From the IMG/VR virus record IMGVR_UViG_3300013005_004254, positions 1 through 20,211 of that record: a DNA stretch of 20,211 nt. One strand, given 5' to 3'. Below are positions 6,754 through 17,715 of the stretch, piece by piece. Within the stretch, counting starts at the first letter, position 1; every line of letters starts with the position of its first letter. Below the pieces are notes generated by a model. That model saw nothing but the letters and a program-made list of their open reading frames with translations, was not told the origin of the DNA and did not search any database. Both the position numbers and the translations under genes were made by a program. Source of the stretch: a virus.

Positions 6754-7154
6754 TGGAATTGTTTGATATTTTAAAAGCATTTTTTTCAGACAAAAAATGG
6801 CAGGATGTAACTAAACAGGAGAAGGCTAAAAACTTCTTTATGATCAATAGAATCATGTCTATCTCCTTGCCGTTACAAGCAAATGCCTTTAATAACACTA
6901 AAATAGATCCGGTTTCCGTTATAGATTTCTGGAAATTTACTCTGAACACCAAATACAAAACACCCCCAGGATGGTTCTTTACTTCAACCAATAAGAAGGA
7001 AAAGAAGAAAGAATATGCTCCAAAAGAAGAAGTTTTGGACCTAATTAGATCCAAGTTTGAGATCTCCAATCGAGAGATAAAAGAACTTCTTCGTTATTAC
7101 CCCAAAGAATTTAAAAGTTTTTGTGAATCGATCGAAGAGCAGATAGCTGGATAG
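6753..7154 (+). CDS. Small protein of unknown function; possible clamp-loader small subunit (gp62-like)
   Basis: A 133-residue soluble, basic protein without signal peptide or membrane segment. I do not recognise it firmly. The N-terminal half has a 'SDKKWQDVTKQEKAKNFFM' helix followed by 'INRIMSISLPLQANAFN', then a Lys-rich linker (about 80-90) and a C-terminal helical part. It is the last gene of the ligase, gp44, kinase and nuclease operon and starts on a TAATG overlap, so a replication role is likely. The T4 clamp loader needs a small gp62 partner, and a weak resemblance of the DW...K..FF stretch makes this the only candidate in the window. That is inference from position. Ends with TAG, 42 bases before the tail-fibre start. 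Confidence 0.7.
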   Translation: MELFDILKAFFSDKKWQDVTKQEKAKNFFMINRIMSISLPLQANAFNNTKIDPVSVIDFWKFTLNTKYKTPPGWFFTSTNKKEKKKEYAPKEEVLDLIRSKFEISNREIKELLRYYPKEFKSFCESIEEQIAG

Positions 7155-7161
7155 GTTCTTT

Positions 7162-7197
7162 TTTCTGTGGATATATAAGAAAAGTATCCACCAGAAA
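7162..7197 (+). promoter_or_regulatory. Hairpin overlapping the tail-fibre start codon
   Basis: TTTCTG (7162-7167) pairs with CAGAAA (7192-7197), and TGGATA (7168-7173) pairs with TATCCA (7185-7190). A single C (7191) is bulged and an 11-base loop separates the arms: 12 base pairs in all. The A of the ATG at 7197 is inside the 3' arm. No U-run follows, so it does not look like an intrinsic terminator. It is placed to block translation of read-through RNA from the replication operon. Confidence 0.65.
7170..7177 (+). promoter_or_regulatory. Candidate late promoter GATATATA
   Basis: GATATATA followed by an A-rich stretch, 19 bases before the tail-fibre ATG. The same octamer occurs in the gaps before 14329 and 17738. 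It resembles the T4 late element TATAAATA. It lies in the 5' arm and loop of the hairpin, so a transcript starting a few bases downstream would lack the 5' arm. Confidence 0.5.
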
Positions 7198-9764
7198 TGA
7201 AAGAACTAACAGATTTAAACATACAACAATTAGGATCCAGCTATGATTCCCTAAAGATTAATCAGAATTTTCAACAGATTCAAGATGCGATTGATCTGCT
7301 ACAAACAACCTTTGGGATAACCATAGAATTACCAGGGTTTGAAGCTCAAAATGCTAAATTTTTAGTCGATGTATTAAGATCTAATTCTATAAAGCTTCCT
7401 GCTACTGGAGCAGTTAAGATAGGATTAGATGGTAATGATGGTGGTATTACTGGATCTTCCTTCAACGTTATTAATAATGCTTATGTTGGAGGCGATTTGG
7501 ACATTTATAACAAAAATGGAACCGGTGGTAGGGTAAGATTTAGAGTTGATAAAAATACCGAGATTACAAAGCCACCAATTCCTGGTCAAGTAAGATTTAC
7601 TGGTAATGCTTTCCAGGGATATGTTTATCAGAACGAGGTTAATTCATCATTTTCTTTCGGGATTAATTCAGGTTCAACGGGGGGAACGATAGCAATTTCG
7701 ATTAACGGAAATCCACTTACAACTACAACTTGGCAGGGTGCAGGTTATTTAACTGGTCAAAAAATTGTTGCTGATATTATTGCAATATCCAATGGCACAA
7801 TTAAAGCCTCCTCCGATGCAACAACAGTAACATTAGAATCAGTTACTGGATATGCATCATTTTATAACAATGCACCGGTAGTTTTAACTACAAACAATAT
7901 TAGTGTCACTCCATCCACTGGTATAATGAGCGGTGGTATAGATGGAACTCAAGGATGGGTAAACTTCACCGGTTATATTGGAGCGACTGGGGGAACTGGT
8001 TCATCAGGACCAACAGGTGCAACAGGTGCAACCGGTCCATCAGGAGGAAGTTCAGGATCAGCAGGATCTTCTGGATCTTCAGGTTCTTCCGGATCTACTG
8101 GATCCTCAGGAAGTTCTGGTTTATCAGGGACATCCGGAAGTTCTGGTCAAAATGGAACTTCAGGAACTGCAGGAACCTCTGGCGAATCTGGATCTGTTGG
8201 ACCAAGAGGATCGACTGGACCAGCTGGATCCTCTGGAACCTCGGGACAAACAGGAACATCCGGGTCCTCTGGAACTTCAGGTACACGTGGATCCTCTGGT
8301 ACATCAGGTACATCTGGATCAACAGGATCTTCAGGATCGTCTGGGCAAACAGGTACCTCTGGATCTTCCGGAACTAGTAGTACCTCCGGAACATCTGGGT
8401 CATCGGGAAGTACAGGAACCTCAGGATCAACCGGAACATCAGGATCTTCAGGGACTTCAGGATCCTCTGGACTTACTGGAGATATTTACGCAACCGATGC
8501 TTCAATCTATGACTCAGTTCACAGTTCACCAAATAGTTTAAATTTATCTTCCCTGGTGATAGACACCTCTGTTGTTTATGTAAATACAGTTTTATTAGAT
8601 CTTGCTTACACTGTAGCTCAAAGCGTGATTGTTGCAGTAGATGAAAATAATTGGTTCGTAGGAGTAATACAATCACTTATTCCAGTAGATGGATATTATG
8701 ATATCTTAGTTAAAGACGTGGAGGGTACTGCTAGTTACGGACCTTCTCAGGTTTGGTCTATGAATCTGGACGGAGCTGTTGGACCTGAAGGACCGGCGGG
8801 AACTTCGGGAACTTCAGGAACTGCAGGTTCTTCTGGAACATCAGGAACTTCTGGATCCTCGGGAAGATCTGGATCAGCAGGAACTTCGGGTTCAACAGGA
8901 ACGTCTGGTTCAGCAGGATCCTCTGGTAGCACTGGTTCTTCTGGAACATCAGGAACTTCGGGATCTTCTGGGTCTTCTGGTAGTACTGGTTCATCTGGAT
9001 CTTCTGGTCAAAATGGATCCTCAGGATCCTCTGGTAGCACTGGTTCATCTGGGGAATCAGGAACTTCGGGGTCTTCTGGTAGCACTGGTTCATCTGGATC
9101 CTCTGGTCAAAATGGATCCTCAGGGTCTTCTGGATCTTCTGGACAAGATGGATCATCAGGGTCATCAGGGTCATCAGGATCATCAGGATCATCAGGATCT
9201 TCAGGATCTTCAGGACAGTCGGGGTCTTCAGGATCATCTGGACAATCAGGCTCTCCTGGATCTTCCGGAACATCTGGAGTAGGGGGAGCAAACGGTACAT
9301 CAACTCAAGTTGCATTTTTTACCGGATCAACAGAACTTGGATCAGATCCCGGACTTTATTGGGATAATAGCAATAAAAGACTAGGGATTGGAGCAGGTAC
9401 AAACCCAGCCTATCCATTAGAGGTAGATGGTAACGCTTCCGGTATTTCAATCTATGCAAGTCATGACGTGGCAGCTTATTCTGATATCTCAGTTAAAAGC
9501 GAGGTGGAAGAAATAACAAATGCTATAGAAAAGATAAAACAAATCAGAGGAGTTACTTTCGTTAGAAATGATTCCGAATCAAAAGAAAGAAGAGCTGGGG
9601 TTATTGCACAGGAAGTAGAAAAAGTTTTACCAGAGGTTATAACTAAAAAAGAAGACGGAACATTAATGGTTGCTTATGGTAACCTTACCTCTTTGTTAAT
9701 TCAAGCAATTAAAGAACAACAGGTTGAAATAGACAATTTAAAAAAGATTATATCGGAGAAATAA
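7197..9764 (+). CDS. Tail fibre with two collagen-like blocks and C-terminal S74 intramolecular chaperone
   Basis: An 855-residue, probably trimeric receptor-binding fibre. Order: an N-terminal region (1-261) with a helical 'YDSLKINQNFQQIQDAID' start that may attach to the virion; a Gly-X-Y block (about 262-428); a folded insert of about 97 residues (429-525); a second Gly-X-Y block (526 to about 697); a short beta domain with 'RLGIGAGTNPAYPLEVDG'; and a peptidase S74 domain. The S74 signature is S762-D..K767 (Ser and Lys five residues apart, as in endosialidase-type chaperones), then 'AGVIAQEVEKVLPEV' and a terminal helix. Family knowledge predicts self-cleavage just before S762, releasing about 94 residues after trimer folding. 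The collagen blocks use Ser and Thr rather than Pro in most X-Y positions. It follows the replication operon, but its hairpin and GATATATA suggest late expression. Confidence 0.9.
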   Translation: MKELTDLNIQQLGSSYDSLKINQNFQQIQDAIDLLQTTFGITIELPGFEAQNAKFLVDVLRSNSIKLPATGAVKIGLDGNDGGITGSSFNVINNAYVGGDLDIYNKNGTGGRVRFRVDKNTEITKPPIPGQVRFTGNAFQGYVYQNEVNSSFSFGINSGSTGGTIAISINGNPLTTTTWQGAGYLTGQKIVADIIAISNGTIKASSDATTVTLESVTGYASFYNNAPVVLTTNNISVTPSTGIMSGGIDGTQGWVNFTGYIGATGGTGSSGPTGATGATGPSGGSSGSAGSSGSSGSSGSTGSSGSSGLSGTSGSSGQNGTSGTAGTSGESGSVGPRGSTGPAGSSGTSGQTGTSGSSGTSGTRGSSGTSGTSGSTGSSGSSGQTGTSGSSGTSSTSGTSGSSGSTGTSGSTGTSGSSGTSGSSGLTGDIYATDASIYDSVHSSPNSLNLSSLVIDTSVVYVNTVLLDLAYTVAQSVIVAVDENNWFVGVIQSLIPVDGYYDILVKDVEGTASYGPSQVWSMNLDGAVGPEGPAGTSGTSGTAGSSGTSGTSGSSGRSGSAGTSGSTGTSGSAGSSGSTGSSGTSGTSGSSGSSGSTGSSGSSGQNGSSGSSGSTGSSGESGTSGSSGSTGSSGSSGQNGSSGSSGSSGQDGSSGSSGSSGSSGSSGSSGSSGQSGSSGSSGQSGSPGSSGTSGVGGANGTSTQVAFFTGSTELGSDPGLYWDNSNKRLGIGAGTNPAYPLEVDGNASGISIYASHDVAAYSDISVKSEVEEITNAIEKIKQIRGVTFVRNDSESKERRAGVIAQEVEKVLPEVITKKEDGTLMVAYGNLTSLLIQAIKEQQVEIDNLKKIISEK
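7980..8480 (+). repeat. Collagen-like Gly-X-Y repeat block 1
   Basis: Nine-base periodic DNA encoding Gly-Ser/Thr-Ser, Gly-Ala-Thr and similar triplets (fibre residues about 262-428). Codons vary between units, so the protein pattern is kept while the DNA has diverged. Long open frames in the other phases here are by-products of the periodicity. Confidence 0.9.
8772..9290 (+). repeat. Collagen-like Gly-X-Y repeat block 2
   Basis: Encodes fibre residues 526 to about 697. Longer-period repeats are visible: segments encoding GSSGSTGSSGSSGQNGSSG recur around 8980-9010 and 9075-9120. Near 9150-9215 the DNA is almost pure nine-base repeats of the ggatcatca/ggatcttca type, which suggests recent slippage expansion. 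Confidence 0.9.
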
Positions 9765-9769
9765 TTATT

Positions 9770-10309
9770 ATGCCTAAATTAACAGAAGTAGATAAAAAAT
9801 TAATCGATGGAGTAATATCAACTATTGACTGGGACCAGATCTTAAAGTTCTACAAAATCCTAAATAAAAGAATAGGTTGTGAACAGGTTAAGATAAAAGG
9901 GGTTATCAAGAAAGATAAAGTTGATCTGGAATCTGCGAAAGATGAGCTATATAAAGTTTTAGAATTTGTTATAGAAAATGATCTACCTGAAATGAATTAC
10001 GGACCTTGGGTAATTCTTTGGGTAAACGGGGAGTGGGAAATAAGTGAATTATTTCAATTCCCACAGGAAGACGAAGAACCACAGCAGGAAGAAATTATAG
10101 TTCCTGTTATGGAATCTAAACTTCAGGTTTTGTTTGTTCCTCAAAGTGTTATTATGAAAGAGGAAATAGAAATAGAGGAGGAACCTTTTGTAATAGATGA
10201 CACTTTAATCCTAGAAGGAAGATTAAAAGAGTCGATAGTTACTGAAGATTATGTACTTGCTAGTAAGATCAGAGATCTTCTGGAAGAATTAAATAAGAGA
10301 AAGAAATGA
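9770..10309 (+). CDS. UVR-motif protein of unknown function
   Basis: A 179-residue acidic protein. The C-terminus (about 148-179) fits the UVR motif found in UvrB, UvrC and related proteins: L...L...I..EDY..A..IRD.L..L, ending in a basic tail. That motif is a short helical hairpin mediating protein-protein contact. The N-terminal half (1-95) is a compact domain with 'NYGPWVILWVNGEW', which I do not recognise. The middle (about 100-140) is Glu/Gln-rich and probably disordered. No nuclease or ATPase motif is present, so it is not UvrB or UvrC; it may be an adaptor. It starts five bases after the tail-fibre stop and its TGA overlaps the next ATG by four bases, so it probably shares a transcript with virion-type genes. 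Confidence 0.75.
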   Translation: MPKLTEVDKKLIDGVISTIDWDQILKFYKILNKRIGCEQVKIKGVIKKDKVDLESAKDELYKVLEFVIENDLPEMNYGPWVILWVNGEWEISELFQFPQEDEEPQQEEIIVPVMESKLQVLFVPQSVIMKEEIEIEEEPFVIDDTLILEGRLKESIVTEDYVLASKIRDLLEELNKRKK

Positions 10310-12776: not shown

Positions 12777-13601
12777 ATGCCGGAAATTAGTGAGGTTAGA
12801 ATTATGTCAGATTTTATTAATCAGGTAGCAGGAAGAACCGAGAATTTTGTGGGAATTTCTAAAAATCCGGAACATAAGAGCAAAACAAATTTACATCTTC
12901 CCTTCGAATCATTTCAACTAAGAGCGGATGCTAGGGGAAAGGAGCTAAGACTTAAATTTATTAGTTTAGATTTTAACTACGAAGAAGCTGAAACTAGAAT
13001 TATGACTTTTACAATGGGCATGAGTGGGAACTGGAATTACTCCAAAGATCTTTTTTCCATCCCTAAGCACACTCATCTAACAATTGTAGATTGTAATGGA
13101 GGAGTTTTAGGAATGCATGATGTTAGAAGATTTGCTAGATGGGATTGGAGAAGCTGGAATCCAGAAAGAGGACATGATCCAGTTCAGGAGACAGAACTTT
13201 TTAAGAAAGATATATTGGAAAATTTGATGAAAGATAGAATCTTTCAAAAACCAATCTTCGAGGTCATGATGAACCAGAAATATTTTAATGGGGTTGGAAA
13301 TTATCTAAGGGCTGAGATCCTAGGCAGAATAGATTTAGATCCAAGATTATCTGCTGAGAATTATATTACCAGAGCGGGAGAACAATTTTTTAATATTACT
13401 GAAAAGGTAATCGTTGAATCCTATATTCTAGGGGGAGGTCAATTTAAGGACTGGTACAACCAAGCAGATCTAGAGAAAAAGAAAAGCAAAGAATTCCAAG
13501 CATGGATGCAATTCTATTTCAATAAAGAAAGGTGTGAACCGATTAAGGATAAACAGGATCGCAATTTTTGGATCGATAAAAAATGGATAAATGATAAGTA
13601 A
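12777..13601 (+). CDS. Fpg/Nei-family DNA glycosylase with a zincless C-terminal finger
   Basis: A base-excision repair glycosylase/AP lyase of the Fpg (MutM)/Nei family, 274 residues. The N-terminus 'MPEISEV' gives the catalytic Pro2 (after Met removal), Glu3 and Glu6, which fixes the start. Further family signals are 'RGKELRL' with K55, 'GMSGNW' (81-86), 'HDVRRFARW' (114-122) and the H2TH block 'NQKYFNGVGNYLRAEIL' with N175. Active Fpg/Nei proteins usually end in a Cys4 zinc finger. Here the terminal region keeps 'MQFYFNKERC' and 'RNFWI' but only one Cys (253) remains, as in the zincless finger of NEIL1. It is first in a two-gene operon behind a TATATTTG promoter and overlaps the next gene by 11 bases. 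Confidence 0.88.
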   Translation: MPEISEVRIMSDFINQVAGRTENFVGISKNPEHKSKTNLHLPFESFQLRADARGKELRLKFISLDFNYEEAETRIMTFTMGMSGNWNYSKDLFSIPKHTHLTIVDCNGGVLGMHDVRRFARWDWRSWNPERGHDPVQETELFKKDILENLMKDRIFQKPIFEVMMNQKYFNGVGNYLRAEILGRIDLDPRLSAENYITRAGEQFFNITEKVIVESYILGGGQFKDWYNQADLEKKKSKEFQAWMQFYFNKERCEPIKDKQDRNFWIDKKWINDK

Positions 13602-14286
13602 AGACACGCTAAGAAAATGCCTATATTTTGATATAGAAACAGCAGGAATAACTTCATCTTTTGAAGAGTTACTGGAATTCGATCCTAGAATTGCTAAACT
13701 CTGGGAGAAGAGATGTAAGTGGCTTAAACAGAATTCCGGGGAAGAATATCGGGATTATGATTACGGGGATTTTTGGAAAATTAAAGCTTCATTACATCCT
13801 GAATTTTCTAAAGTTGTTTGTATTAGCTTCGGAGCTTATCACGGGGAAGAAATGAAGATTCAATCTTTTATCGGTGAAGAGTATGAAATTCTAAATAACA
13901 CCAATAAGGTTTTTAATAATGCAATCTCAAAAGCATGGAAGCTTGGTGGTCACACAATTAAAAATTTCGATATCCCTTTCGTCGGAAAGAGAATGATCAT
14001 CAATAAGATTGATCCCTCTCCCCTTATTGCAAATCTTAATAGAAAACCCTGGGAATCACCATATCTAGACATTTCGGAAGCTTTTTCATTTGGAGGCTGG
14101 GGCCAAACACACACTTCACTTGATTTAATGTCCGCGGTATTGGGCTTAGAATCACCTAAAGAAGATATGGACGGATCGATGGTACATCAATATTTCTACG
14201 AGGGAAGAATTGATGACATTAAAAAATACTGCGAAATGGACGTCAGGGTCCTTATGGAATGCTTCAATTCCTTCTCTTTTGATTAA
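13591..14286 (+). CDS. 3'-5' exonuclease, DNA polymerase B exonuclease-like
   Basis: A 231-residue DEDDy-type exonuclease. Exo I is 'YFDIETAG' with D14 and E16, Exo II is 'GHTIKNFDIPF' with N124 and D126, and Exo III is 'YCEMDV' with Y212 and D216. 'SPYLDISEAF' and 'SLDLMSAVLGL' fit the predicted 3'-5' exonuclease family related to the proofreading domain of PolB (PF10108-type). No polymerase domain is attached. It overlaps the glycosylase stop by 11 bases, so the two are co-translated. A role in repair-gap processing or proofreading in trans is plausible but inferred. The ATG at 13591 lies in the overlap, and Exo I begins only 11 residues later, supporting this start. Confidence 0.87.
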   Translation: MISKDTLRKCLYFDIETAGITSSFEELLEFDPRIAKLWEKRCKWLKQNSGEEYRDYDYGDFWKIKASLHPEFSKVVCISFGAYHGEEMKIQSFIGEEYEILNNTNKVFNNAISKAWKLGGHTIKNFDIPFVGKRMIINKIDPSPLIANLNRKPWESPYLDISEAFSFGGWGQTHTSLDLMSAVLGLESPKEDMDGSMVHQYFYEGRIDDIKKYCEMDVRVLMECFNSFSFD

Positions 14287-14296
14287 TTAAGAAAAT

Positions 14297-14334
14297 TCCC
14301 ATTAGATATATACAATTAAAATATCTAAGTGGGA
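14297..14334 (+). promoter_or_regulatory. Hairpin enclosing the GTG start of the nucleotidyltransferase
   Basis: TCCCA (14297-14301) pairs with TGGGA (14330-14334), and TTAGATA (14302-14308) pairs with TATCTAA (14322-14328). One G (14329) is bulged and the loop is 13 bases: 12 base pairs in total, the same geometry as 7162-7197. The start codon GTG (14329-14331) and the upstream in-frame TAA are in the 3' arm. No U-run follows. Confidence 0.7.
14305..14312 (+). promoter_or_regulatory. Candidate late promoter GATATATA
   Basis: The same octamer as at 7170 and 17708, 16 bases before the GTG start and followed by an A/T-rich stretch. It spans the end of the 5' arm and the loop of the hairpin, so an RNA started just downstream could not form the stem. 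Confidence 0.5.
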
Positions 14335-15075
14335 TCTCACATTCAAAGTTTTAAAGATTGGCGTTTAAATGAAGATCGTTTTTATCAAAACGAGCTTAAT
14401 CCAATCTTTTGGTCCAATAAAGAATTTGATGCTTCCGTCAGGGAAAAGCTATTACAAATAGCTCAGGAATTCTATTCCTCTTTCAAATTGGAAATCCCCA
14501 TCGATGATATCCAATTAACAGGATCTCTTGCAAATTATAACTGGACCCCTAAATCAGACTTAGATGTTCATATCCTAATAGATTTTTCTAAGATTAATCC
14601 AGATCTAGCTTTAGTAAAAAAAGCAATGGATGGTCAAAGATTCATTTGGAATCTGAGGCATAATATTGTGATCAGAGGGTTTGATGTTGAGCTTTATCTC
14701 CAAGATGTTAGAGAGCAACACATTGCTTCTGGCCTATTCTCCCTATCAAATAATCAATGGATTAAGATTCCGGAATACAACCCTCCTCAAATAGACGAGA
14801 ATGACGTTGATCTCAAATTTTTAGGTTTGGCTAACGATATCAAAGAAATTGAGGCGAGACTATTAAATCCGGATCCTGGTGTATCGCCAAGAGAGCTTAA
14901 CGAGCATGCAGAAAAAGTTAAGTCTAAGATCATGAAAATGAGAAAAGAAGGTCTAGCAGAAAGGGGGGAGTTCTCCGTAGAAAACCTAGTCTTTAAAAAA
15001 TTAAGAAACGAAGGATATATAGAGAAACTAATAGACCTTATATCAAGGTCCTATGAACAAATCTATAATGAATAA
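14329..15075 (+). CDS. Pol-beta-superfamily nucleotidyltransferase with a possible capsid-targeting peptide
   Basis: A 248-residue protein read from GTG; an in-frame TAA directly precedes it and no earlier start exists. The nucleotidyltransferase signature is complete: G65-S66, D77-x-D79 and a third acidic strand 'FDVELYL' with D119/E121. This core is intact, so activity (NMP transfer to RNA, protein or a small molecule) is likely. The C-terminal part (about 150-248) is helical and charged. The N-terminus 'HIQSFKDWRLNE' ending at E15 resembles T4 capsid-targeting peptides such as MKTYQEFIAE of internal protein I, which gp21 removes after (L/I)xE. Together with a start-hiding hairpin, a GATATATA motif and location before head genes, this suggests a late, packaged protein. 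The substrate is unknown. Confidence 0.82.
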   Translation: MGSHIQSFKDWRLNEDRFYQNELNPIFWSNKEFDASVREKLLQIAQEFYSSFKLEIPIDDIQLTGSLANYNWTPKSDLDVHILIDFSKINPDLALVKKAMDGQRFIWNLRHNIVIRGFDVELYLQDVREQHIASGLFSLSNNQWIKIPEYNPPQIDENDVDLKFLGLANDIKEIEARLLNPDPGVSPRELNEHAEKVKSKIMKMRKEGLAERGEFSVENLVFKKLRNEGYIEKLIDLISRSYEQIYNE

Positions 15076-17707: not shown

Positions 17708-17715
17708 GATATATA
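17708..17715 (+). promoter_or_regulatory. Candidate late promoter GATATATA before the protease-scaffold gene
   Basis: Third intergenic copy of the octamer, 22 bases before the ATG at 17738 and followed by AAAATAAATAAA. A short hairpin (TATCTG 17694-17699 with CAGATA 17706-17711) overlaps its 5' end, but no arm reaches the start codon. The rest of this 50-base gap shows nothing else. Confidence 0.5.

Follow-up and report, generated by a model that had tools for sequence, protein, structure and literature searches.

The stretch at 14297-14334 of the viral record IMGVR_UViG_3300013005_004254 (20,211 nucleotides, analyzed at its full length and called the window here) raises the question of whether the leading gene of a late operon can be kept silent by a hairpin that covers its start codon and holds a late promoter. 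The gene concerned (14329..15075, + strand) has a GTG start and encodes a protein of the nucleotidyltransferase (NT) fold, with a conserved GS...DxD signature (PHROG 36119) and the invariant residues G65, S66, D77, and D79. Its database matches were weak (NTP_transf_2 or MTPAP-like; best solved structure at an E-value of 0.0013 over approximately 85 residues), and its substrate was therefore left without a name. It follows a 3'-5' exonuclease gene (13591..14286, + strand; DNA_pol_B_exo2/RNase_H_2, Pfam 3e-13, PHROG 25228 1e-32), which is the last of an early-type block. In a cyanophage and in Caulobacter phage Cr30 (L174, L175), an NT homologue is located near the DNA polymerase, in the replication region. 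The window also contained two tandem portal-protein paralogues (3-1091 and 1095-2822), which were found in many relatives as well.

The hairpin at the NT start was confirmed as real. Folding paired a 5' arm at 14297-14309 (UCCCAUUAGAUAU) with a 3' arm at 14321-14334 (AUAUCUAAGUGGGA), both on the + strand, into a stem of 13 bp with one bulge and an 11-nt loop. Its minimum free energy was -12.8 kcal/mol (z -2.8), a value that none of 200 shuffled sequences equaled; none of 100 was as good when the motif GATATATA was fixed and the flanks were shuffled, and 6 of 200 were for a wider stretch. The motif (14305-14312, + strand) overlaps the 5' arm and GTG 14329 lies within the 3' arm, which agrees with the placement in the initial annotation. 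The latter had described 12 bp with a single bulge in the 3' arm and a loop of 11-13 bases; the bulge and loop stand, but an outer T-A pair lengthens the stem. It had also assigned the bulge to the G of the GTG, which is possible, but A14327, A14328, and G14329 are bulged at essentially equal energies and the feature is not conserved in relatives, one of which (L002) has a 9-bp stem without a bulge. A comparison with Rfam yielded no match.

Very probably, GATATATA serves as the late promoter in a T4-like group of phages, because its enrichment, the classes of genes that it precedes, its T4-homologue neighbors, and the presence of a matching sigma factor all point to this function. Across the window and the 55 loci related to it that were retrieved with the NT protein, 189 of 1013 gene calls had the motif in the 60 bases upstream, a 24-fold excess over background. 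The motif preceded the prohead protease in 44 of 44 distinct cases, NT in 43 of 45, and two more clusters downstream of a capsid-region gene in 22 of 22 and 12 of 12. By comparison, it preceded none of 323 starts in ten clusters of the early-type block, namely ligase, gp44-like, GMP kinase, flap exonuclease, gp62-like, UvdE, Fpg, exonuclease (0 of 42 orthologues), and two conserved clusters without a named function; the block upstream of NT consists of such replication and repair genes. In long contigs, GATATATA promoters adjoined homologues of T4 gp14, gp17, gp20, gp21, gp23, and gp25, and a T4 gp55-type late sigma factor was encoded on 18 of 20 relatives' contigs, its gene lying beyond the 20-kb window. 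GATATATA would thus act as a -10-like element, and the early and late gene classes, including the early status of the operon upstream of NT, are putative. By analogy with T4 spacing, late transcription is predicted to start approximately six bases downstream of the motif, at 14318 (± 2 bases, + strand), and the 5' arm would be missing from the RNA that begins there.

The window contained five copies of GATATATA, compared with 1.1 expected. Two of these (15014 and 18343), absent from the initial annotation, were intragenic and lacked a hairpin. Another (7170-7177) is spanned by a companion hairpin (7154..7207, + strand; -23.2 kcal/mol, z -3.9) whose stem passes through ATG 7197, the start of a collagen-like tail fiber gene, and orthologous hairpins were present in relatives; a hairpin had been noted here before, although its proposed extent (7162-7197) was too short. 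The late promoter of the prohead protease (17708..17715, + strand) carried no lock, as had been claimed for this copy, and neither did any of its 39 orthologous sites.

Hairpins were then sought at every GATATATA in the 55 related loci and in seven long contigs. An early pairing score that took in every pair across +1 within 72 nt was discarded for being dominated by the A+T background. Splitting at a fixed +13 overlooked hairpins whose loops had 8 bases, so three split points were used instead. All 39 distinct sites with GATATATA upstream of NT formed a hairpin spanning the promoter, with energies no higher than -9 kcal/mol (median -15.8, compared with -6.6 in shuffled sequences), and for 29 of these, no more than 2 of 200 shuffled sequences did as well. 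The very distant homologues L048 and L052 had no motif, and L008 had a variant of it. Among the other late promoters of the same loci, 7 of 119 reached the cut-off, and all seven were orthologues of the 7170 site. The hairpins therefore fall at two orthologous junctions that directly follow replication and repair genes: from exonuclease to NT (28 of 37 passing the strict cut-off, -10 to -24 kcal/mol) and from the clamp loader to the fiber-type gene (-12 to -25 kcal/mol). None of 77 late-to-late promoters and none of 73 in-gene copies of GATATATA passed; had stems been as common at random junctions, this would have counted against the initial annotation. Its expectation that they occur only where early genes give way to late ones held in these loci. 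Not every promoter that follows early-type genes is locked, however: none of 13 sites between a clamp-loader gene (c08) and c04 was. This unlocked promoter was seen in L017-L049; c04 (9770-10309 in the window) is followed by more early-type genes.

Stems were maintained while their sequences changed, with compensatory substitutions in both clades, which bears out the view that structure rather than sequence is conserved. Both sides were altered in 8 of 12 pairs in a sister clade; for the clade of the window, the count was 6 of 11. On most measures, covariation exceeded that of controls made by shuffling or sliding. G-U cells outnumbered A-C cells by 34 to 13, a ratio in which related rows are not independent, and this excess fits a structure that forms in the coding-strand RNA. 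More distant NT homologues, including those of Maribacter phages Molly and Colly, Prevotella Lak phages, and uncultured phages of 634-735 kb, had no GATATATA lock upstream; the lock therefore belongs to a subclade. In a distant huge phage (L168), a palindrome (AGGATTTTTAATATATATTAAAAATCCT, with the core AATATATA) was present upstream of the NT match, at a distance of approximately 130 bases.

Predicted accessibility of the start differed strongly between the two presumed transcripts. At start-lock sites, the cost of opening the start was 10.8 kcal/mol in read-through RNA and 3.9 in late RNA, with a difference of at least 2 kcal/mol at 15 of 15 sites, and the fiber starts behaved alike (10.6 and 3.3, 11 of 11). 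The window's NT start cost 13.9 kcal/mol in read-through RNA and 4.1 in late RNA, and was thus approximately 10 kcal/mol easier to open in the latter, whereas other late promoters showed little change (2.4 versus 1.5). No Shine-Dalgarno enrichment was detected upstream of the genes of this group, whose hosts appear to do without such sites; the lock would therefore act directly on the start codon. From this lack of enrichment, together with distant isolated relatives, we infer a Bacteroidota-like host.

These results provide good computational support for the start-lock reading of the initial annotation, and the element is very likely a timing lock of the T4 type. Read-through RNA from the upstream replication and repair operon would carry both arms and fold into the hairpin, and the GTG of NT would then be concealed from the ribosome. 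Later, a gp55-like sigma factor would bring the polymerase to GATATATA, and the RNA begun within the loop would leave the NT start open. The first gene of the late operon would in this way remain silent on early read-through RNA and be expressed from late RNA.

Alternatively, the main role of the hairpin might be to stop transcription that arrives from the upstream operon, its loop holding the late promoter. This is unlikely at 14297-14334, where the start codon itself sits in the stem, a terminator scan of the site found none, and, as in the rest of the window's clade, no T-tract follows. The sister clade, which comprises 27 tree rows, is what speaks for termination: a stem of at least 10 bp is followed by a T run with the start right after it, the loop is GATATATA or little more, and the whole resembles the canonical terminators of these phages near 17.2 kb of the loci. 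A stem followed by a U-tract, as in intrinsic (Rho-independent) terminators, was thus found in the sister clade and not in the window, although a late promoter in the loop sets the sister-clade form apart from such terminators. In form, the sister-clade hairpin is closer to a terminator than to a start lock. Its starts were barely less open in read-through RNA (5.7 versus 3.9 kcal/mol, with a 2 kcal/mol difference reached at 7 of 26 sites), so translational locking does not explain them. In the window's clade, the 3' arm reaches the start codon or extends over it. In L025 and L027, the GTG can pair in a stem and there is no T-tract; their hairpin was not significant in the shuffle test, and their position nested inside the terminator clade of the NT tree implies a change of mode. 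On balance, we lean toward one orthologous early-to-late junction at which some phages have a start-codon lock and others an intrinsic terminator whose loop contains the late promoter, the mode having changed at least once more in L025/L027. If so, early RNA would end and late RNA would begin at one and the same terminator-form element, approximately 45 bases long. A search of the accessible literature for promoters within terminators returned nothing relevant, which is weak evidence of absence.

An inverted repeat that flanks and overlaps a promoter could also be a DNA operator for a dimeric regulator, and I-TevI of T4 is described as binding over its own late promoter and repressing it (PMC2988022). 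However, arm sequences and spacing vary among relatives, the repeat is missing from other late promoters, and there are more G-U than A-C cells, which makes an operator quite improbable. We give hardly any credence to a chance or compositional effect of A+T-rich DNA around GATATATA: the motif is partly self-complementary and provides weak background pairing, but the comparative data contradict this explanation, given the contrast of the NT sites with in-gene and late-to-late copies and the covariation of the stems.

Timing locks of the kind favored here are known from T4 genes e, I-TevI, and segB (PMC3014915 and PMC2988022). In T4 e, late promoters lie in the 5' strand of a hairpin of the early mRNA (McPheeters 1986, as reviewed in PMC3014915). 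The NT element is similar in that the late promoter lies in the 5' strand, the initiation region is in the 3' arm, the gene is presumably downstream of early transcription, and late RNA would lack the 5' arm. Unlike the NT element, T4 e hides a Shine-Dalgarno site together with its ATG; here the GTG, TTG, or ATG itself is covered and no Shine-Dalgarno site is used. In addition, the T4 e promoter is TATAAATA rather than GATATATA, and the gated gene here heads a late operon. The T4 lock is defined in PMC3014915 by sequestration of the Shine-Dalgarno site and/or the start codon; at the NT start, the predicted fold pairs the initiation region with upstream RNA and sequesters only the start codon. 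Hairpins of T4 I-TevI, I-TevII, I-TevIII, and segB and of Aeh1 mobE share the promoter-in-hairpin logic (PMC2988022), but they guard mobile endonucleases, whereas NT and the tail fiber gene occupy fixed positions in the gene order. New here are the covering of the start codon itself and the U-tract form of the sister clade with a promoter in its loop. As a control, the same pipeline was applied to T4 and recovered e, I-TevII, segB, and I-TevIII without flagging 20, 22, 19, or 34. I-TevI (7 of 200 shuffles) and gene 49 (23 of 200) fell below the strict cut-off, soc showed nothing, and 51 and inh passed, yet are not among the T4 locks described in the accessible text of PMC3014915 and PMC2988022. 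The pipeline therefore yields false negatives and perhaps false positives.

The T4 trick, known from a handful of genes, is thus extended to dozens of large relatives in an uncultured T4-like phage family, where the lock is fixed at defined early-to-late boundaries. It offers a sequence-only marker of such boundaries and of late promoters for phages that have never been grown, and shows how a lock could operate on ribosomes that make no use of Shine-Dalgarno sites. It also suggests that a translational lock may be swapped for a transcriptional one in evolution while the promoter geometry is kept.

In the seven long contigs (one of them scanned over 396 of 434 kb), the promoter-like sites that passed numbered 17 of 252, and the other sites 3 of 123. 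Upstream genes in these contigs often have no known function, and the early-to-late rule is therefore firm only at the two conserved junctions. The starts of gp25 homologues were locked at G011 74308 and G014 325254 by unrelated stems, and the orthologous G017 275629 had none. A late promoter with a start-covering stem also followed an asparagine-synthase-like gene (G011 56737; weaker at G014 307624). Finally, in L113 (G014 51811), a GATATATA hairpin just below the cut-off preceded a LAGLIDADG-type endonuclease gene, right after smpB, an arrangement like that of the T4 homing endonucleases.
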